This document shows positions 9,629 to 40,534 of a DNA stretch of 47,883 nucleotides, piece after piece. This stretch comes from an uncultured Mycoplasmatota bacterium (GTDB taxonomy: Bacteria; Bacillota_I; Bacilli_A; RF39; UBA660). A program made the translations under genes and the position numbers. The stretch's first letter is position 1, and every line of letters starts with the position of its first letter. The stretch spans positions 1 through 47,883 of the forward strand of contig CAOJEH010000011.1 of assembly GCA_948434005.1 (NCBI GenBank). The letters are read 5' to 3'. The notes under the pieces were generated by a model. It was not told the DNA's origin. It saw nothing but the letters and a program-made list of their open reading frames with translations, and made no database searches.

Positions 9629-10300
9629 TTATTCTACTGATTGTAATTCACCAATATATATTGTTTGAGTAGTACTATCAAAATTAGTACAAGTAACAAG
9701 TGTTAGTGTAGTTCTATTTTGATTTCTATATATAGATATATTACCAACTTTAGGTGCCTTATAAATATTAACAAATTTATAAGTGTACGTTTTATTATTA
9801 TAGACTACTTTAGCAGTATCTCCTATAGATAATTTATATAAATCATTGAAGAATGACTTCCACGAATCACCTGAATGTCCTGCTATTATTAAGTTACCCT
9901 TTGGTACATTTGGGTAATCAGATTCCTTAACAAGTAATAAGTTCTTTTCAACATCATTTAATTCAGATTCCTTTGGATAAAACCCTTTATTAAATCCTAT
10001 CTTATCAATAATAAGTGTACCTATATATTGATTAGGATCCACTGAAACATCAGGAACTCCTGTATCACTATCGCTTATAATATTTTCTTCTTCAATGCCA
10101 TTTTCTGAAGCATTTGTAAAGAAGACATTATTCATATAATCATAGGCCATCACCTTTTTAGATTTGACATAATTATATGAAAGAAAGAATCCCCCAATTA
10201 TCATTATTATAGTACCAATAAAAGCTACTACAGTTGGTGAGATTCTTTTTTTTCGTTTAGTATTTTTATTTATATGCTTTTTTGTTATTTTTGTAAACAT
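9629..10300 (-). CDS. Sortase family transpeptidase, catalytic arginine not evident
   Basis: Sortases cleave an LPXTG-like signal and attach the protein to the cell wall or to other pilins. With the start at 10300 (AGGTG seven bases upstream) it has about 223 residues: basic N-terminus, one membrane helix near 22-44, and a sortase fold. Catalytic His is in IAGHSG (about 142) and Cys in LTLVTC (about 204). The expected arginine downstream of the Cys is not there: the remaining 19 residues contain none, and Gln or Thr sits at its place (STTQTIYIGEL). The longer frame to 10333 has no good ribosome site. It overlaps the adhesin gene by 35 bp, which makes the adhesin its likely substrate. Confidence 0.88.
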   Translation of the reverse strand: MFTKITKKHINKNTKRKKRISPTVVAFIGTIIMIIGGFFLSYNYVKSKKVMAYDYMNNVFFTNASENGIEEENIISDSDTGVPDVSVDPNQYIGTLIIDKIGFNKGFYPKESELNDVEKNLLLVKESDYPNVPKGNLIIAGHSGDSWKSFFNDLYKLSIGDTAKVVYNNKTYTYKFVNIYKAPKVGNISIYRNQNRTTLTLVTCTNFDSTTQTIYIGELQSVE

Positions 10301-12179
10301 ATAATGCACCTGATGAAACAATAGCGATACCAATTAAATAGAATGGAAGTGAACTTGATCCTGTATCAGGAACTTCTACATAACATTCATCATCATCTAA
10401 GCCACCGTTTTCACAAGTCTTAGGAACATTCTTTATAGTTACTTGATAAGATAAATGTTCACTATCTATTGTAAATGATTGAGTTTCTTCATTTAAGAAA
10501 TATCCATCTGGAGCTGACTCTTCTGATACTGTATATGTACCATCTGGAATATTATTAATTACATATGACTCACTAGATGAAGTAAATCTTGCTACTTCTT
10601 CTCCATTTGCATTAGTTACAACAATTACGGCACCACTTACAAAGTTACCAGTAACACTATCTACTTTAGAAATAGTTACTACTCTATCCTTAGGGATATT
10701 ATAGAATTTAACTTCTACAGACTTAGTAGTATCATCTAAAGTAAATGTTTCTTTTTCTGTACTTAATTCATATCCAGCAGGAGCTTCTACTTCTTCTACT
10801 GTATATGTACCATTAGAAAGACCAGTTATACTATTTCCATTTGCAGATGATGTAATTTTTTTAATTTCATTACCATATGAATCTTTTATAACTAATACTG
10901 CACCAGTAACTGGATTATTAGTATTCTTATCTAATTTGAATATAGATACAACAGAAGTTGTTGCTTTATTATAATATTTTACCTCAGCTGTTTTAGAACT
11001 ATCTGATATTGTAAATGATTGTTTTTCTGTACTTAATTCATATCCAGCAGGAGCTTCTACCTCTTCTACTGTATATGTACCATTAGCCAAATCTTCTATC
11101 TCATAAGCCGCTGTAGTTGATGTAAATCTATCTACTTCTTCTCCATTTGCATTTTTTATTACTAACACTGCACCTTCTACTGCTGCATTAGTATCTTTAT
11201 CTAATTTTAAGATTGATACTTTTGAAGGAACTGGTTCCTCTGGAGTAGGTTCAGGTACTGGAGTTGGAGTTGGTGTTTTCTTTGGTGTTTTAGGTTTAGT
11301 TGCTTTAACACTAACTGTATCTGAAACATTTTTAGTATATTTTTGTAATACTGTCATTGGTTGAATACTATTATTCTTAGGTGCATATTTATATGCTTTA
11401 TTAATTGTACTTGACGCTGTGATTTTAACTTTAGCTGTTACAGTTTTTCCTTCAGCAATTTTACTAGCAGGAATTTTAATTAAGAATTTTTCATTTGCTT
11501 TAAATGAACTTTGACGATTACCTTTTGTATCAGTTATTATAGTACCACTTGGAGCACTAGAAACTGTTACTTTATATTTTCCATCAATATTTTTAGCATT
11601 TGCATCTATTGATTTAGATACATAATACTTCTTATTTGAATCTAGCGTTGTCTTAGTAGTACTTACTTTTGCCTTCAATGAAGGTGTAGAATAGCCCTTC
11701 TTCTTAGCAGATTTAGCACCACTGACTAAGCTCTTCATATGTTTTCTTAACCCATATTTATCAGAACCATTTGTTTTAAATGATTTAGATAAGTATGAAG
11801 TACCTGTAGTATCATCTAAATACCACCATATAGCACCTTGTGTTATATAGAAATCTTTTTTACTGTTACCAGTAAAATGCTTTTTAGGATATCCATTTTC
11901 TAGAATATAAGCAATACCTGCATTCATCTCTTTTTCTAAATATTGAGTTGAATTTGAAGCATTACCTTTATGGATATTTAAACAATAACCATAGCCTCCT
12001 CCTACTAAAGGCTTCATGTTGTATTTTGTTCCCGCAACATAACCAGGTAGTAATGTTACTTTACCAACCTTAATAGTTTTTGATGCAGCACTTGCAGACT
12101 TTGTGTCTACAAACACTAGTGTCATTGCGATTACAAATATTGCGATAATCTTACTTATCTTGGAAATTACTTTTTTCAT
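10266..12179 (-). CDS. Thioester-domain adhesin with three Cna-B repeats and VPDTG anchor
   Basis: A secreted, wall-anchored surface protein of 637 residues. Signal peptide 1-32 ends in SASAAS. A thioester domain follows: Cys66 in GYGYCLNIH and Gln114 in YITQGAIWWYLDD are the residues that form an internal Cys-Gln thioester in Gram-positive adhesins, which bind host amines covalently. A middle domain and a Pro/Thr-rich linker (about 290-315) lead to three Cna-B/SpaA-like domains, each with a Lys near its start (LKLDK, FKLDK, ISKVD) and Glu in VEEVEAPAGYE or VSEESAPDGYF, fitting isopeptide bonds. The sorting signal VPDTG (603-607), a membrane helix and a basic tail end the protein. It is the first gene of the sortase operon, with a strong promoter upstream. 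Confidence 0.92.
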   Translation of the reverse strand: MKKVISKISKIIAIFVIAMTLVFVDTKSASAASKTIKVGKVTLLPGYVAGTKYNMKPLVGGGYGYCLNIHKGNASNSTQYLEKEMNAGIAYILENGYPKKHFTGNSKKDFYITQGAIWWYLDDTTGTSYLSKSFKTNGSDKYGLRKHMKSLVSGAKSAKKKGYSTPSLKAKVSTTKTTLDSNKKYYVSKSIDANAKNIDGKYKVTVSSAPSGTIITDTKGNRQSSFKANEKFLIKIPASKIAEGKTVTAKVKITASSTINKAYKYAPKNNSIQPMTVLQKYTKNVSDTVSVKATKPKTPKKTPTPTPVPEPTPEEPVPSKVSILKLDKDTNAAVEGAVLVIKNANGEEVDRFTSTTAAYEIEDLANGTYTVEEVEAPAGYELSTEKQSFTISDSSKTAEVKYYNKATTSVVSIFKLDKNTNNPVTGAVLVIKDSYGNEIKKITSSANGNSITGLSNGTYTVEEVEAPAGYELSTEKETFTLDDTTKSVEVKFYNIPKDRVVTISKVDSVTGNFVSGAVIVVTNANGEEVARFTSSSESYVINNIPDGTYTVSEESAPDGYFLNEETQSFTIDSEHLSYQVTIKNVPKTCENGGLDDDECYVEVPDTGSSSLPFYLIGIAIVSSGALYVYKNNKKAYK

Positions 12180-12208
12180 AATTTTTCCCCCTTCAAATTT
12201 GTGGCTAT

Positions 12209-12237
12209 ATTATACCACATTATTTAAATAATTGCAA
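12209..12237 (-). promoter_or_regulatory. Strong promoter of the adhesin-sortase operon, with palindrome in the spacer
   Basis: The minus strand has TTGCAA (12237-12232), a 17-bp spacer and TATAAT (12214-12209). The transcript would start about 25-30 bases before the ATG, with GGGGG as ribosome site. A perfect 14-bp palindrome, ATTATTTAAATAAT (12219-12232), covers most of the spacer and could be an operator. Confidence 0.7.
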
Positions 12238-12328
12238 GTTTTTTCTCCCACGACTAAATATTATAAACTTTTTTTCTAAAAAAGCAAGACGTTTACATTA
12301 AATAATATACATTAACCTATAAATTTAT

Positions 12329-13207
12329 CTACTTTTTCGTATATTGAGTTGAATTTTCGCTCATTACCAAATTACCATTTTTTTGTAATTGTTCTCTTAA
12401 AACAGCCCTAGTATAGTATACTGCACCTTCAAAATCTATTTCATTATCCATAAAACTATATTTTTTACTAGTACTATCCCATATGCCACTATGTTTATCT
12501 ATAAAATCTTTATCTAAATATCTAGTATCTGCATCATGAATACTTATTTTTCCTCTTAAATCAAGCATTCTACCAAAGTATTCAGTTAATTTTTCTGGAT
12601 CATATTTACCACCATGTAATTGATAAATATCATAAAAATCTTTTACCCTTGTATTCAAAACATCTGGTTTATTACTTTCAACAATAATACATAACTTTTC
12701 CGCTAAATATTCTTCAAATGAAGGTGTATATATCTCAAATTCTTTATCACCTTCAAATATTTTAGGCATTATTCTATATTTAGGCTCAATTAACCTAGAA
12801 TAATCTTCTTGAAAATCTACAGATAGTGGTTGTTTTGTAATATCAAAAGCTAACTCAAATGATAATTTATATATACCAGTATTAGTTACTCTAGGTTCTT
12901 TTTTTAACGAAAAGGAAAAACCGTCACTAGTATCTTTCACAAGTAATTCAAAAATATCACTATTAACATTGAATTTATCAATACTTGCTATATCTACATC
13001 TGTGATTGGTCTTATTAGTGTACCTAAGCATGAAACCTCAGTTGAACTACCCTTTACTAATATTTGTTCAGAATTATACTTACTTAGCTTTTCTAAAAAA
13101 CATCTAGCAGCAAATGTAGAATATGTATTTTGAATACTTATATTTAATCTTCTAGACTCCTTTTTCATAAAAGCCTTCATCTGATTACTATTTCTAAATC
13201 TCTGCAT
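12329..13207 (-). CDS. AbiEii-like nucleotidyltransferase (type IV toxin family), orphan
   Basis: AbiEii proteins are DNA-polymerase-beta-like nucleotidyltransferases; some modify tRNA or use GTP and act as toxins with an AbiEi antitoxin. This 292-residue protein shows the core pattern ILVKGSSTEV...RPITDVDIASID (nucleotide loop and Asp-x-Asp metal site, about residues 50-75) and the downstream block PSFEEYLAEKLCII...RVKDFYDIYQL typical of the family. No AbiEi-like gene precedes it; the upstream gene diverges and encodes an unrelated 106-residue protein. It could be a solitary cellular nucleotidyltransferase or a toxin that lost its partner. A consensus promoter and GGGGG ribosome site support expression. 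Confidence 0.82.
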   Translation of the reverse strand: MQRFRNSNQMKAFMKKESRRLNISIQNTYSTFAARCFLEKLSKYNSEQILVKGSSTEVSCLGTLIRPITDVDIASIDKFNVNSDIFELLVKDTSDGFSFSLKKEPRVTNTGIYKLSFELAFDITKQPLSVDFQEDYSRLIEPKYRIMPKIFEGDKEFEIYTPSFEEYLAEKLCIIVESNKPDVLNTRVKDFYDIYQLHGGKYDPEKLTEYFGRMLDLRGKISIHDADTRYLDKDFIDKHSGIWDSTSKKYSFMDNEIDFEGAVYYTRAVLREQLQKNGNLVMSENSTQYTKK

Positions 13208-13234
13208 ATATTAGTACCCCCTTGTGTACTGCAC

Positions 13235-13263
13235 ATTATATCACATTTTATAATTTTTTTCAA
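13235..13263 (-). promoter_or_regulatory. Promoter of the AbiEii-like gene
   Basis: The minus strand has TTGAAA (13263-13258), 17 bp, and TATAAT (13240-13235) with an upstream TGA giving an extended -10. The short leader contains AGTAC...GTACT, a 5-bp stem whose loop holds the G-rich ribosome site. Confidence 0.65.
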
Positions 13264-13309
13264 TACTAACTTATTTATATAAATAAATTAATAAAATTAT
13301 ATAAGATTA

Positions 13310-13318
13310 TGATATAAT
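13310..13318 (+). promoter_or_regulatory. Extended -10 promoter of the plus-strand cassette
   Basis: TGATATAAT is an extended -10 element about 35 bp before the first ATG of the cassette at 13353. No clear -35 box. It faces away from the AbiEii promoter, so the two units are divergent. Confidence 0.5.
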
Positions 13319-13352
13319 TATGGAAACATATATAAAGGAAAAGGATTAAACT

Positions 13353-13673
13353 ATGGAAGAAATAATTGGAAATGAATTTATTGAATATAAAACAGGATTT
13401 ATAGCTGGAAAAGGTGAAATCGTAGAAGCAATTTCATTAGGAAAAGTAATAAATCTAAAAGATAATGAAGATACATTAGAAGATAATGATTCTTGGTATG
13501 TTCATGGTTTTAATGATGGATTTAATTATTTTTCTAATTTAATAGATAATAATAAACTTGACTTAGAAAATATAAATACAAAAAATATTGTAAAAGAATG
13601 TTTTGCAAAAAGAGTAATGGATGCAAATAAAAATAAAGATAACCAAATACCAGTTGCAAAATTTAGAATATAG
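13353..13673 (+). CDS. Hypothetical protein, first gene of the DNA-handling cassette
   Basis: A 106-residue acidic, soluble protein with a central SWYVHGFNDGFNYF and no recognised domain. A ribosome site (AAGGA) lies about 12 bases before the ATG. It is followed after 25 bp by the glycosylase-like gene and starts a run of four same-strand genes on an otherwise mostly minus-strand segment. No function is proposed; it could be an accessory or regulatory subunit. Confidence 0.7.
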   Translation: MEEIIGNEFIEYKTGFIAGKGEIVEAISLGKVINLKDNEDTLEDNDSWYVHGFNDGFNYFSNLIDNNKLDLENINTKNIVKECFAKRVMDANKNKDNQIPVAKFRI

Positions 13674-13698
13674 TAAATTGATTATGATGAGGTGTAAA

Positions 13699-14448
13699 AT
13701 GATAAATAGAAGTGAAATTTTAAATAAAGTTGACAAACTTATAAATATGTATAAAAATGGAGAACTTGGCGGAGAAGTAATGCCAGAAGATGCAAATCCA
13801 CATTTTGAAAAATCGTCTAATGAAAACTATTTATATTTTACATTACCTATGGCACTAAACTATCAAAGAAATTCTTATACTCTTTGGGAAAGTGCTTTAA
13901 AAACTTATGAAGATAAAGAAACAAGATTTGTATTTAATCCTAAAATATGTTTAGAAAAAAGTTTTGAAGAAGTACAATATGCACTTACTAAACATAAAGT
14001 AGCATTACAAAAGCAAAAACAAACTGAAATATGGTTATCTCTTTGTAATACATTTGTGGAATTATATGACGGAGATATAAGAATGCTATTTGATAGATTA
14101 GATAATGATGTTGATATAATTAGAGATTTTATTCAAAAACAAAATAAGAAAAAATTCCCCTATTTATCAGGAACTAAAATATGTAATTATTGGTTATATG
14201 TAATTTGGGAGTATACAGATAGAAAATATAAAAATATAGAAAATTTAACAGTAGCTCCAGATACTCATGTAGTAAAGGCAACTCATAAATTAGGTTTAAT
14301 TACAAAAGAAGAATTAAATAAAAGTGATGTTCAATTAATTGTAATTGATAGATGGAACGAATTATTTAAAGGAACAAAATATAAACCTATTGATATTCAT
14401 ACTCCATTATGGCTATGGAGTAGAAATGGCTTTAAGGAGATAAAATGA
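13699..14448 (+). CDS. HhH-GPD DNA glycosylase-like protein (AGOG/OGG type)
   Basis: Base-excision glycosylases remove damaged bases; bifunctional HhH-GPD enzymes use a lysine Schiff base and an assisting aspartate. From the ATG at 13699 (GATGAGGTG just upstream) the protein has 249 residues. Near the C-terminus it has LSGTKICNYW (Lys160) and VAPDTHVVKATHKLGL (Asp188). This matches the Lys-in-hairpin and DTHV-plus-LGL pattern of the superfamily. The Lys-Asp spacing of 28 lies between OGG1 (19) and archaeal AGOG (about 32), and the length resembles AGOG. The usual LPGVG loop is reduced to LSGTK. It overlaps the ASCH gene by four bases (ATGA). The assignment rests on motifs only; a binding protein without lyase activity is possible. 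Confidence 0.68.
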   Translation: MINRSEILNKVDKLINMYKNGELGGEVMPEDANPHFEKSSNENYLYFTLPMALNYQRNSYTLWESALKTYEDKETRFVFNPKICLEKSFEEVQYALTKHKVALQKQKQTEIWLSLCNTFVELYDGDIRMLFDRLDNDVDIIRDFIQKQNKKKFPYLSGTKICNYWLYVIWEYTDRKYKNIENLTVAPDTHVVKATHKLGLITKEELNKSDVQLIVIDRWNELFKGTKYKPIDIHTPLWLWSRNGFKEIK

Positions 14449-14846
14449 TGAGGGTTTTAAGTTTAAAAGAACCATATGCTACTTTAATAAAAGAAAAAAA
14501 GAAATTAGTTGAAACTAGAAGTTGGAAAACGAATTATAGAGGGACACTATATATTCATGCAAGTATGACTAAACCATCTAAAGTAGACTTAGAAAATATA
14601 GAATTAATGTCACTAGTAGAAAATAAAAAAATGAATTACGGTAATATTATCTGTAAATGTAATTTAGTAGATTGTATTTATATGACACAAGATTATATAA
14701 ATAGTATTAAGAAAAATAATTATCAAGAATATATTTGTGGTGAATACCAAGTTGGAAGATATGCTTGGATACTAGAAAATATAGAAGTATTAAATAGACC
14801 TATTAAAGCTAAAGGTCATTTAGGAATATGGAAGTATGAGGAGTAA
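14445..14846 (+). CDS. ASCH-domain protein (PUA-like nucleic-acid binding)
   Basis: 133 residues. The ASCH fold is related to PUA and EVE domains and binds RNA or modified nucleosides; the E. coli relative YqfB hydrolyses N4-acetylcytidine. The signature is visible as LSLKEPYATLI, then KKLVETRSW (the GxKxxExR region) and RGTLYIHAS. Start: ATGATG just after AAGGAGAT, overlapping the glycosylase stop. The radical SAM gene begins 3 bp downstream, so three genes are translationally linked. Whether it is an enzyme or a reader of modified bases is unknown. Confidence 0.85.
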   Translation: MMRVLSLKEPYATLIKEKKKLVETRSWKTNYRGTLYIHASMTKPSKVDLENIELMSLVENKKMNYGNIICKCNLVDCIYMTQDYINSIKKNNYQEYICGEYQVGRYAWILENIEVLNRPIKAKGHLGIWKYEE

Positions 14847-14849
14847 ACC

Positions 14850-15680
14850 ATGATTATAAAAGAAATACAAACAAAAGAATATTTAACTAAATCTAATCTT
14901 CCTGCAAGTGATTATGTTATTAATCCCTATGTTGGATGTCCCCATGGTTGTAAATATTGTTATGCATCATTTATGAAAAGATTTACAAATCATACAGAAG
15001 ATTGGGGAGATTTTATAGATATAAAAAGAACTGAAAAGAAGATTAACTTAAATAAAATAAGTAAAAAAACTGTATTTTTATCTTCTGTAACGGATTGCTA
15101 TAACCCATTAGAAGAAAAATATAAAATAACTAGAAATATTTTAAAACAATTAATTAATTCAGATTGCTACTTATCTATTTCTACAAAATCAAATCTAATA
15201 CTAAGAGATATTGACTTATTAAAACAAATTAAAAATGTAGTTGTAAGTATTTCAATTAATACACTTGATGAAAACTTTAGAAAAGATATGGATAATGCAA
15301 GTACAATAGAAGAAAGATTAAATACTCTAAAAGAATTACACAATAATGGTATTCATACTGTTTTATTTATGTCTCCTATATTTCCTTTTATTACTGAATG
15401 GAAAAAAATAATAGAAAAATCAAAAGATTATATAGATGAATATTGGTTTGAAAATCTAAACTTAAGAGGCCAATATAAATCATATATAATGAAATATATT
15501 AAAGAAAACCATAAAGAATACTATAATGATTATGTTACTATTTACTTAAAGAACAATAAAGAGTATTGGAACAAATTAGCTAATGAGATTAATAATTACT
15601 GTGAAGATAATAATATAAACTATATTAATTATTTTTATCACGAAGAGCTAGTAAGAAAAAAGAAAGAAGCAAAAAAATAG
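14850..15680 (+). CDS. SPL-family radical SAM protein (SplB-like photolyase relative)
   Basis: Radical SAM enzymes of the SPL family cleave S-adenosylmethionine with a 4Fe-4S cluster; the best-known member repairs spore photoproduct in DNA. This 276-residue protein has the family N-terminus YVINPYVGCPHGCKYCYA with cluster cysteines 30, 34 and 37 (CxxxCxxC), followed by a TIM-barrel-like core with VFLSSVTDCYNPLE. It lacks an obvious extra C-terminal domain. It is the last gene of the cassette and is followed by a bidirectional terminator. The glycosylase and ASCH neighbours support work on nucleic-acid bases, but the substrate is not known. Confidence 0.87.
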   Translation: MIIKEIQTKEYLTKSNLPASDYVINPYVGCPHGCKYCYASFMKRFTNHTEDWGDFIDIKRTEKKINLNKISKKTVFLSSVTDCYNPLEEKYKITRNILKQLINSDCYLSISTKSNLILRDIDLLKQIKNVVVSISINTLDENFRKDMDNASTIEERLNTLKELHNNGIHTVLFMSPIFPFITEWKKIIEKSKDYIDEYWFENLNLRGQYKSYIMKYIKENHKEYYNDYVTIYLKNNKEYWNKLANEINNYCEDNNINYINYFYHEELVRKKKEAKK

Positions 15681-15692
15681 ATATAAATATAT

Positions 15693-15729
15693 AAAACTCC
15701 AATTCAATATAATATTAAATTGGAGTTTT
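15693..15729. terminator. Bidirectional terminator between the cassette and the ABC permease
   Basis: A perfect 12-bp stem (AAAACTCCAATT with AATTGGAGTTTT) encloses a 13-nt loop, with A-rich and T-rich flanks on both sides. It serves the plus-strand cassette and the convergent minus-strand permease gene. Confidence 0.9.
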
Positions 15730-15738
15730 CTTTTATAA

Positions 15739-16539
15739 TTAACTTCTTTTATTATGTAAATATATTTCTATTCTTTCTATTAAATAATACATAATATATG
15801 ATATTACTGCTAAAATAACAACACTACTTATAACTAAATCAATATTAAATACTTGAGAGCCATACATAATAAGATAACCTAAACCACTCTTTGAAACCAA
15901 TAACTCTCCCATAATAACACCTATTAAACTCATAGATATATTTATCTTTAATGCATTTATTATTGTAATATAATTACTAGGTAAGACAACTTTAAAAAAT
16001 ATTTGTTTCTTAGTAGCTTTTAATGATTTTAAAAGTGTAATATAATTCTTATCAGTAGCTATAAAACCATTATATATATTTATAATTGTAATAAATGTAT
16101 TAATAAGTAAAGCCATAAATATAATTGAATTAATACTAGCACCTACCCAAATAATTATTAAAGGCCCTAGTGCTACTTTTGGAAGTGAATTAAGTACTGT
16201 TAAATATGGATCTATAATTTTAGAAATAGTTTTATTACTCCAAAGTATTGTTGCTACAATCAAACCTATAATAGTAGCAATAGAAAAACTTATAAATACT
16301 TCATACATTGTAATACCTATATGTTTAAATAGACTTCCATCTTTAAATAAACTAATAGCAGTTTTTAATGCACTACTAGGACTAGATGATAAGAAAGTAT
16401 TAATTATATTATATTTTGATAGTAATTCCCATCCTACTAGAAAGATTGTAATTATAAGTATTCTAAAGATAAATACTATAGTCTTTTCTTTACGAATCTT
16501 TTTTAAATAAGCCTTATGTTCCTCACTATATATGGACAT
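15739..16539 (-). CDS. ABC transporter permease (TauC/SsuC/ThiX-like)
   Basis: Membrane subunit of an importer for small organic solutes. 266 residues with about six membrane helices. The cytoplasmic coupling loop is visible as SLKATKKQIFFKVVLPSNYITIINALKINISMSLIGVI, the EAA-like segment of this subfamily. The start overlaps the end of the ATPase fragment by 14 bp, as in an intact transporter operon. Because the island sits in the ATPase gene upstream, this gene is now cut off from its original promoter and partner subunit and depends on read-through from the recombinase side. The substrate is not clear; taurine/sulfonate and thiamine-pyrimidine importers share this architecture. Confidence 0.9.
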   Translation of the reverse strand: MSIYSEEHKAYLKKIRKEKTIVFIFRILIITIFLVGWELLSKYNIINTFLSSSPSSALKTAISLFKDGSLFKHIGITMYEVFISFSIATIIGLIVATILWSNKTISKIIDPYLTVLNSLPKVALGPLIIIWVGASINSIIFMALLINTFITIINIYNGFIATDKNYITLLKSLKATKKQIFFKVVLPSNYITIINALKINISMSLIGVIMGELLVSKSGLGYLIMYGSQVFNIDLVISSVVILAVISYIMYYLIERIEIYLHNKRS

Positions 16540-16885
16540 CTAAATCCCTCCATATCGTATCATAATATTTTGAAAATTCCTTACATTTTCTATTATTAAT
16601 AGGAGTAGATTTATCAGATAGTTTTATATCATATATTTTTTTTACTTTAGCAGGTCTTTTTGTTAATACTACTATTTTATCAGACATACTAATAGCTTCT
16701 GCTATATCATGAGTTACCATAATAGCAGTTTTACCTTCATTCTTTATAATTTTATAAATATCATCACTGATAGCTAACCTTGATTGATAGTCTAATGCAG
16801 ACATAGGTTCATCTAAAAGTAAAATATCTGGTTTTATTGCAAGTGTCCTTATCAGTGCTACTGTTTGAATGTAGTATAGACACAA
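16526..16885 (-). pseudogene. C-terminal part of an ABC-transporter ATPase split by the island
   Basis: Host-derived coding sequence runs from 16861 down to 16526 and encodes VALIRTLAIKPDILLLDEP (Walker B), the D-loop SALD, and the switch histidine in MVTHD. It lacks Walker A and the signature. The open frame continues to a TTG at 16885, but those first eight codons belong to the island end and no ribosome site precedes them, so it is not an independent gene. The missing N-terminal 139 codons are at 39992-40407. Joining the two at GT gives ...SGGMRQR-V-ALIRTLA... in frame, 249 residues, a normal length for TauB/SsuB. Confidence 0.95.
16838..16884. repeat. Island attachment junction (recombinase side)
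   Basis: The core dinucleotide is AC on the plus strand (16860-16861; GT in the ATPase reading direction). To its left is ATPase gene sequence. To its right, after 3 bp, is the 20-bp arm TTGAATGTAGTATAGACACA (16865-16884). Its reverse complement matches the arm at the other junction in 18 of 20 positions. Confidence 0.9.
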
Positions 16886-16891
16886 CTATAA

Positions 16892-18499
16892 TTAAAAATT
16901 CCACTTAAGATAAATATTTCTAGTATTAGTTTTTTTATCAATTTTTGAAATATAAATTTTATCAATAAATTCTTCAATAATAACTCTGTTAAGTTTATCA
17001 AACTGTTTATATTTAGTAAGATAATCTTCTTCATTAAATTTTTTTATTTGTTTTTTATAATGCTGAATCTTATCATCTACATATTTTATTTGCTTATTAT
17101 AGTCACTATTTAATTTATTATAAGTATTAATTAGTTTTTTAAATTGATCAGTATTTATAATACCATTAACCCTATCTTCATAAATATTTTTTAAATAGAT
17201 TGTATTTTTGGATTTCATTTTTAATATTTCTTTTTTTTGATATTCTAATGATTTTATTTTTAAATTAAACTTGTTTTTACTATTTTTTGATATTTCTTTT
17301 TCTAAAAAATATATATCATAATATTTCTCTATCTTTTTATTAATTTTATCTAAAATTAAATCTTCAAGTTTTTTATATCTAATAGATTCTTTATTAATGC
17401 AATCATTATAGCCACCATGATTATTAGAACAAACTAAATACTCATGTTTACTTGAATTTTTCTTCCTCATATAATGATTACATTCTAAACAAAACACTTT
17501 TCCAGAAAAATTATGGATTTTGCCACTTTTTTTTATTGATCTTGTCCTTTCTTTCATAATAGTTTGAACCTTTTTAAATATCTTCTCATCAATAATAGCT
17601 TCATGTGTATTCTCATATCTTATCCATTTATCTTTAGGTTTATTAATAATTTTATGATTTTTATAACTTACAGTAGTTCTTTTTCCTTGTATTAAATGTC
17701 CTAAATATATCTCATTAGTTAAAATAGTTTTTATAGCATTACTACTCCATTTAATTTCTTCTCTTGGTCTATTACTAATTATATTTAATTTTATTCCATT
17801 TTTATATTTATATAGTGAGGGGCAAGGTATATTTTTACTATTAAGATACTTAGCAATACCTGTAAAGCCTAAACCCGATAAATATAGGTTATATATTTCT
17901 TTTACAACTTCACTAGCTACTTTATCTATAACTAATTTGTTATTATCATATGTAGATATTTCATAACCAAATACTGCGAAAGGCGAGATAAATTCACCTT
18001 GCTTCATTTTAGAATTAAAAGCACTTCTTATATTATTTGAAACATCTTCTAAATACCATTCATTTACTAATCCATTTATTTGCCTTGATTTTTTATTACC
18101 AATATTTTCTGTATCAGCATTATCACTAATACCAATAAATCTAATATTCCATTCCTTAAATTTATTATTAATATAACGTTCAACTATTTCCATATCCCTT
18201 GAAAATCTAGATTGACTTTTAGAAATTACAATATCAAGTTTTCTATTTTTACAGTCCTCAATTAGTCTTTCAAATTCAGGTCTATAAGTTCCAGCACCTG
18301 ATAAATCTTCATCGCAATATTCATCTATAAGTATAAAATTAGGATGCTTATTTATATAATCAAGTAACATATTTCTTTGATTTTTAATAGATTCACTTTC
18401 TTCTTCATCCTTTTGCTTATCTTTATCTTCATTAGATAGTCTTAAATAAATGCCTACTCTAAATATTCTATCTTCCTCATCATTTTTAAATTCAGTCAT
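16892..18499 (-). CDS. Large serine recombinase (integrase) of the island
   Basis: Catalyses site-specific integration and excision by a phosphoserine mechanism. 535 residues. The resolvase-type catalytic domain (about 14-160) has the nucleophile Ser22 in YLRLSNED and conserved arginines in SQSRFSRDM. The recombinase domain (about 170-320) contains WSSNAIKTILTNEIYLGHLIQG. A zinc ribbon with Cys337, 340, 357 and 367 and a long coiled coil (about 390-500) complete the architecture of TnpX/phiC31-type enzymes. The stop is 30 bp from the crossover core. Its start overlaps a small upstream ORF. All catalytic features look intact, so the element may still be mobile. Confidence 0.96.
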   Translation of the reverse strand: MTEFKNDEEDRIFRVGIYLRLSNEDKDKQKDEEESESIKNQRNMLLDYINKHPNFILIDEYCDEDLSGAGTYRPEFERLIEDCKNRKLDIVISKSQSRFSRDMEIVERYINNKFKEWNIRFIGISDNADTENIGNKKSRQINGLVNEWYLEDVSNNIRSAFNSKMKQGEFISPFAVFGYEISTYDNNKLVIDKVASEVVKEIYNLYLSGLGFTGIAKYLNSKNIPCPSLYKYKNGIKLNIISNRPREEIKWSSNAIKTILTNEIYLGHLIQGKRTTVSYKNHKIINKPKDKWIRYENTHEAIIDEKIFKKVQTIMKERTRSIKKSGKIHNFSGKVFCLECNHYMRKKNSSKHEYLVCSNNHGGYNDCINKESIRYKKLEDLILDKINKKIEKYYDIYFLEKEISKNSKNKFNLKIKSLEYQKKEILKMKSKNTIYLKNIYEDRVNGIINTDQFKKLINTYNKLNSDYNKQIKYVDDKIQHYKKQIKKFNEEDYLTKYKQFDKLNRVIIEEFIDKIYISKIDKKTNTRNIYLKWNF

Positions 18500-39968: not shown

Positions 39969-40015
39969 TGTGTCTTTACTATATTCAAGGAACTCTTTGT
40001 CTCATACCACCAGAT
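39969..40015. repeat. Island attachment junction (muramidase side)
   Basis: The 20-bp arm TGTGTCTTTACTATATTCAA (39969-39988) is followed by GGA and then the core AC (39992-39993; GT in the ATPase direction). ATPase gene sequence continues to the right. Arm length and distance to the core mirror the other junction exactly. Confidence 0.9.
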
Positions 40016-40407
40016 AAACTAGATGGATATTTATCCTTAAATTCATAAAGACCATATGTCTTTAATAGTTTTAATACATATTTCCTAGATTCATCATTAA
40101 GTTTTCCAATAACTTCAAGGCCAATTAAACAATTATCTAATATAGTTCTCCAAGAAAATAATGAATCATCTTGTAACATATAACCAACTGTAATATTATC
40201 CTTCATATCTACTAACCCATCAGATTTATCTTCTAATAATGAAAGAATTGATAAGATTGTAGATTTCCCACATCCTGATGGTCCTACTATAGATATAAAT
40301 TCTTTTTCATATACATCTAGACTAATATCTTCTAGTGCAACCATTTCACTTTTTCTATCATGATAACTTTTCTTTAAACCCTTTATACTTAGTATAATAT
40401 CTTTCAA
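39985..40407 (-). pseudogene. N-terminal part of the ABC-transporter ATPase split by the island
   Basis: Starts with TTG (40407-40405) behind GGGAGGAG. It encodes Walker A GPSGCGKST, the Q-loop region GYMLQDDSLFSWRT, typical of TauB/SsuB/ThiZ-like ATPases, and the signature LSGGMRQR. After codon 138 the sequence enters the island: GTT CCT TGA gives a premature stop. The missing Walker B half lies 23.1 kb away at 16526-16861. As it stands it cannot hydrolyse ATP normally. Confidence 0.95.
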
Positions 40408-40534
40408 TATATCTCCTCCCAGATATATTATTTTATGAAAGATTATACATTATGGTAAGGATAAAATACTATATTTAAACTACTTATTAAAATAATTTTA
40501 AAAAAGATTCATATATTTTTATAGGAGGTAATAT

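Follow-up and report, generated by a model that had tools for sequence, protein, structure and literature searches.

Qng1 (DUF2419), whose substrate is queuosine-5'-phosphate (PMC11592518, PMC11130926), resembles 8-oxoguanine DNA glycosylases according to the literature (PMC11592518). In the archaeal Pab-AGOG protein, 8-oxoguanine is contacted by Q24, K149, D208 and W212 (PMC9638937). DNA glycosylases also defend bacteria (PMC11078745), and those known in this role belong to the UDG superfamily (PMC11078745, PMC13160076). Among ASCH-domain proteins, the YqfB-type amidohydrolases possess a Lys21-Thr24-Glu74 triad with Thr24 as the nucleophile, along with Arg26 (PMC6972931). Here, we compare with these systems a cassette of four genes at positions 13353-15680, on the + strand, of a 47.9-kb stretch of DNA (contig CAOJEH010000011.1, hereafter the window) from an uncultured Mycoplasmatota bacterium, the assembly of which comprises 1.45 Mb in 17 contigs. 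In order, the genes encode a protein of a family without a name (gene 1), an HhH-like protein (gene 2), an ASCH protein (gene 3) and a radical SAM enzyme (gene 4). An earlier note on this DNA had proposed that they form one system recognising, rewriting or removing a modified base; we found this set together in no other sampled genome. What emerges from the sequence comparisons is a candidate AGOG-like family, represented by gene 2, with exchangeable nucleotide-metabolism partners, Qng1 fusions included. A limited search of the open-licence literature returned no description of an AGOG-like family with such partners.

Gene 2 and AGOG

Gene 2 (13699-14448, + strand) codes for a 249-aa protein, to which neither Pfam nor the other family libraries gave a naming match. 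Its start is conserved at 13699, and the list of open reading frames contains a longer frame from 13621. Homologues with 68-87% identity were present in 30 of the 288 genomes of the order that served as the sample for gene searches (its own genome included), and one further, more distant homologue was found in another family. Starting from the window protein, we also found a relative encoded on a haloarchaeal plasmid (E 8e-14), and through it we reached a second haloarchaeal protein and a protein of the halovirus HGTV-1. These three archaeal and viral sequences match Pfam AGOG (PF09171) weakly (E 2e-4 to 7e-4), at 19.4-21.1 bits, below the gathering cut-off of 26.1. With the archaeal relatives in, the whole-family profile matches AGOG 1xqo (E 8.1e-5, residues 181-238) and, more weakly, EndoIII. 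Lys160 and Asp188, the catalytic positions of HhH-GPD proteins, are invariant in 15 of 15 family sequences; Asp188 was located by the 1xqo alignment and Lys160 by an hhalign match of the gene 2 profile to Nth (P 0.0039), which, like the match to Qng1 (P 0.035), is in register and weak. The profile match and the invariant residues bear out the glycosylase with lysine and aspartate that the earlier note had recognised. Its HhH-GPD label stands by way of the family profile and AGOG 1xqo, though not by a direct Pfam match or a usable fold model.

The likeness to AGOG extends to several positions: K160 corresponds to Pae K140, D188 to Pae D172 and W238 to the stacking Trp, Pae W222, and a C-terminal P-x4-T-x2-W-L motif is common to AGOG and the gene 2 family. 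Two of the base contacts, in contrast, are changed, and the Trp (Pab W212) is kept. Bacterial members carry His234 at the position of Pab D208 and Tyr167 at that of Pab K149, the latter placed by its spacing from Lys160; the archaeal relatives keep Asp at the former and have Arg at the latter. Scores under the gathering threshold and the fusion or coupling to nucleotide-salvage enzymes are further differences. On these comparisons, we class the gene 2 protein as a distant relative of AGOG of the HhH-GPD type, and as no AGOG by either score or base pocket.

Two of the distant relatives deserve a brief description. The HGTV-1 protein is the product of gene 212 (L246:7986-8708) and is annotated as endonuclease III. 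The homologue from another family of the class lies at a locus (L244:1241-7680) that also encodes an AAA-domain deaminase, a GP88 protein, a U32-peptidase-type protein and a guanylate kinase fused to a methyltransferase. Separately, HhH transferases of the aGPT type occur with kinases and radical SAM enzymes in thymidine-hypermodification sets. We considered such a set for the cassette and put it aside: gene 2 has no Pfam match to these families, and a literature search gave no support.

Partners and proposed function of gene 2

Of the 29 other gene-2 genomes, 17 have gene 2 fused to, overlapping or abutting the gene of an enzyme related to nucleotides or bases. Qng1 (Q_salvage, PF10343, E 2.6e-42) forms the C-terminal part of three fusions of 561-563 aa (L085:5229-6917, L088:6191-7882 and L089:5180-6865), and its gene overlaps gene 2 in L081 and L084. 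By an estimate that takes about one gene per kb, <<0.01 such adjacencies would be expected by chance, against the five observed. The remaining direct partners are DUF84 (three loci), HD (four), Ham1 (two) and UDG (one), and in two loci the gene 2 domain is fused to a class I methyltransferase (L072:6374-7759 and L077:6320-7696). The gene orders run ferredoxin-thioredoxin, gene 2, Ham1, UDG-like, HD and DHH in L078; ferredoxin-thioredoxin, gene 2, Qng1, an unnamed 136-aa protein, UDG-like and DHH in L081; and ASCH (of a subtype different from that in the window), gene 2 and Qng1 in L084. Co-occurrence within genomes, with kinship and genome size not controlled, was also above expectation, both for gene 2 and Q_salvage (10 vs 4.0 expected, Fisher p 0.0025) and for gene 2 and the radical SAM family (8 vs 2.1 expected, p 0.0003). 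The base- and nucleotide-enzyme theme seen by the earlier note thus holds for gene 2 through its partners elsewhere, but these partners are exchangeable and make up no fixed set. As to Qng1 itself, its published likeness to 8-oxoguanine DNA glycosylases parallels that of gene 2, and the two are physically joined in the loci above; yet their homology is unconvincing at the hhalign P already given.

Our preferred interpretation, which we hold to be a serious possibility somewhat short of probable, is that gene 2 encodes an N-glycosidase, an accessory module that serves the salvage of nucleobases or the clean-up of nucleotides, and that the four genes are an accessory operon put together in a variable chromosomal slot and not a conserved four-part machine. 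Asp188 and Lys160 would act as they do in AGOG, breaking the base-sugar bond, and the changed base pocket would favour a modified purine or a 7-deazaguanine compound other than 8-oxoguanine. The action would probably take place at the level of nucleosides, nucleotides or tRNA breakdown, so that released products feed salvage or non-canonical nucleotides are removed. Of the partners, Ham1, DUF84 and HD may then produce or clear nucleotide monophosphates, and Qng1 and UDG may release other bases; in the window, the ASCH protein would occupy the partner position. It is tempting to go further and to suppose that gene 2 founds a family of HhH-GPD N-glycosidases working on modified-purine or 7-deazaguanine nucleotides, not DNA, serially with Qng1, Ham1, DUF84, HD or UDG-like enzymes, the Qng1 fusion being a two-headed queuosine-related salvage enzyme. 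We consider this extension rather doubtful. If gene 2 does cut a modified nucleotide, the salvage of queuosine or of modified nucleotides would gain a new step in bacteria scavenging these compounds, and the HhH-GPD repair fold would have shifted from DNA repair to small-molecule metabolism, as it appears to have done in Qng1.

Several observations weigh against an N-glycosidase of salvage or clean-up in an accessory operon. The fold assignment of gene 2 rests on sequence profiles because the single-sequence AlphaFold model is unusable (pLDDT 37), and a profile built from the bacterial subset alone matches nothing in the PDB. The window genome has TGT and lacks a Q_salvage gene; therefore, gene 2 cannot be strictly tied to Qng1 in that genome. 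The adjacency of ASCH and radical SAM genes recurs in two other loci, L042 and L140, so these two genes may be functionally linked after all. Finally, the UDG-like partners of gene 2 would fit DNA repair equally.

Repair is indeed the main rival. Under it, gene 2 would be a DNA repair glycosylase/lyase, a variant of AGOG removing an oxidised or otherwise damaged base from DNA, while the linked UDG-like and nucleoside-triphosphate-sanitising enzymes would control damage by other routes. The closest solved relative of gene 2 is AGOG, UDG-superfamily and Ham1 genes directly adjoin it in several genomes, and the annotation of the HGTV-1 relative points the same way. Nevertheless, we judge repair rather unlikely, since the bacterial family has other residues at two AGOG base-contact positions (His234 for D208, Tyr167 for K149), fusion to Qng1, an enzyme that acts on a mononucleotide, does not amount to a repair context, and gene 2 is sporadic and mobile in a host that already has a normal Nth.

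The same mobile and sporadic distribution would suit anti-phage defence, in which gene 2 excises a modified phage base in the manner of Brig1 and Brig3, ASCH serves as a reader and the radical SAM enzyme as a modifier. That bacteria are defended by DNA glycosylases lends this some plausibility (PMC11078745), as do the large serine recombinases adjoining gene 2 relatives in four loci and the AbiEii-like nucleotidyltransferase gene next to the cassette (12329-13207, - strand; 292 aa; PF08843 E 2.1e-13, PADLOC AbiEii E 1.7e-23). Base excision is, however, all that is shared with Brig1 and Brig3, which have the UDG superfamily fold, whereas the gene 2 profile matches AGOG and EndoIII. Around gene 2 in the 29 relatives, we recognised no defence genes that recur, the partners there being metabolic, and PADLOC matched the four genes only with weak, generic radical-SAM and ASCH models. 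The defence context at which the AbiEii-like gene hinted in the earlier note is thus weak: that gene is an orphan flanked by a pilin gene and gene 1, with no AbiEi antitoxin gene beside it, and no gene 2 relative appeared in IMG/VR in the scans run with the family. Defence therefore strikes us as very unlikely. Overall, repair and defence are both less well supported for gene 2 than salvage or clean-up, defence being the weaker of the two.

The cassette and its variable slot

The four close-packed genes and the diverging AbiEii-like gene described by the earlier note are all present as open reading frames, and the translational linkage it saw is supported by a 25-nt gap between genes 1 and 2, a 4-nt ATGA overlap between genes 2 and 3, a 3-nt gap between genes 3 and 4 and purine-rich sequence upstream of genes 2, 3 and 4 at each junction. 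Gene 1 (13353-13673, + strand) encodes an acidic 106-aa protein (isoelectric point 4.7). Its homologues occur in unrelated contexts, in 11 other genomes of the order. Because each of the four genes has conserved homologues elsewhere, they are more than chance reading frames. An inverted repeat followed by a T run (15681-15738, + strand; predicted fold -14.3 kcal/mol) is probably the terminator of the cassette.

Conservation of the cassette as a whole is another matter. The ASCH or radical SAM family of the window lies next to gene 2 in none of the 29 other gene-2 genomes, and the complete cassette is found in none of the eight other genomes of the same genus, the window's genome alone carrying the set. 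A search with the whole stretch in 18 genomes (nine of the genus and nine more) found the genes apart, except for an ASCH-radical SAM pair in G203. Since neither this search nor the per-gene search of the 288 genomes found a second set, we rejected the idea of a conserved four-gene system. The earlier note had itself named rare co-occurrence of the genes as speaking against its proposal, and rare co-occurrence is what the neighbourhood searches returned.

The slot that holds the cassette (12245-15739), defined by the synteny of L209 and L210 with the window, has a chromosomal pilin/sortase locus at its left and an ABC permease gene at its right. In the relatives G011 and G288, this pair of permease and pilin genes encloses a choloylglycine-hydrolase-family gene and two others (in G011, a CBAH-family hydrolase with 538-aa and 141-aa genes). 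DNA similarity ends at the slot borders and resumes at ~12147-12244 and ~15740-15900 of the window, and no convincing leftovers of the replaced CBAH genes were found in the window. Such differently filled slots, with similarity stopping at the borders, indicate that the cassette is a local, recent combination.

Might the four genes then be unrelated passengers, co-transcribed by chance in a variable slot and sharing no function? The families do occur apart in nearly all other genomes, and slot contents vary between close relatives. We still find this unlikely, as the partners of gene 2 elsewhere are non-random, an ASCH subtype in L084 among them, and the ASCH-radical SAM adjacency recurs. Within the accessory operon that we favour, genes 1 and 4 are probably passengers in their own right, with a loose relation at most. 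It should be kept in mind that close-packed genes sharing a theme need not form one system.

The ASCH and radical SAM genes and the flanking DNA

Gene 3 (14445-14846, + strand; 133 aa) matches the PUA-like ASCH domain PF04266 above the Pfam cut-off (28.1 vs 21.2 bits), and the human ASC-1 ASCH domain is its nearest PDB relative (E 5e-8). In a by-eye alignment, it has K-L-V-E-T-R at the site of the YqfB triad, with Glu for Thr (K-x2-E, not K-x2-T). Thus, gene 3 shares the ASCH domain with YqfB, but it lacks the Thr of the triad and is closer to the ASC-1 type. Scans of IMG/VR gave no ASCH relatives. In L042:2609-4353 and in L140, the only two other loci where these families are neighbours, an ASCH domain fused to a transglutaminase-like domain is encoded directly beside a radical SAM gene, in opposite orders. 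With this adjacency recurring twice, a functional link between ASCH and radical SAM is possible.

Gene 4 (14850-15680, + strand) has a radical SAM domain (78.6 bits) with CxxxCxxC at residues 30/34/37. Its predicted model is confident (pLDDT 92.5), and the top six PDB fold matches are all spore photoproduct lyase (SPL), the best with E 1.7e-8, TM 0.58 and 14% identity. The SPL-type label given by the earlier note is therefore correct for the fold, as far as the model goes. Fold and cluster motif are shared with SPL; in contrast, identity and TM score are low, and no SPL sequence model supports gene 4, TIGR03886 reaching E 0.035 only. By spacing from the cluster, Val80 would stand at the position of the H-donor cysteine of SPL (Gt C140). 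The nearby Cys83 is present in 21 of 26 sequences.

The radical SAM mobile pair protein B model, TIGR04470, matches residues 3-259 of gene 4 at 318.6 bits, under its curated cut-off of 410. Five relatives of gene 4 (L063, L143 and L145-L147) are paired behind a DUF5131-type radical SAM gene, whereas gene 4 has no such pair-A gene, no second radical SAM gene being found among its neighbours in the window. Other relatives have unrelated partners or DUF1848; the latter stands in place of mobile pair A in five loci (L053, L056, L060, L062 and L141). We also considered gene 4 as a queuine lyase (QueL) and dropped this candidate, as phmmer against the PDB gave no convincing relative.

Finally, we would like to comment on the DNA around the slot. 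Its left neighbour (9629-12179) encodes a thioester/TQXA and SpaA-type LPXTG pilin accompanied by a sortase, and the pilin is 50-70% identical among close relatives. Further to the right, a ~23 kb element (16868-39990) with a large serine recombinase (16892-18499) interrupts an ABC ATPase gene, the C-terminal part of which lies at 16529-16867 and the N-terminal part at 39991-40410. The gene is uninterrupted in G011, and related recombinases adjoin the same gene end in G288, G290 and G294.
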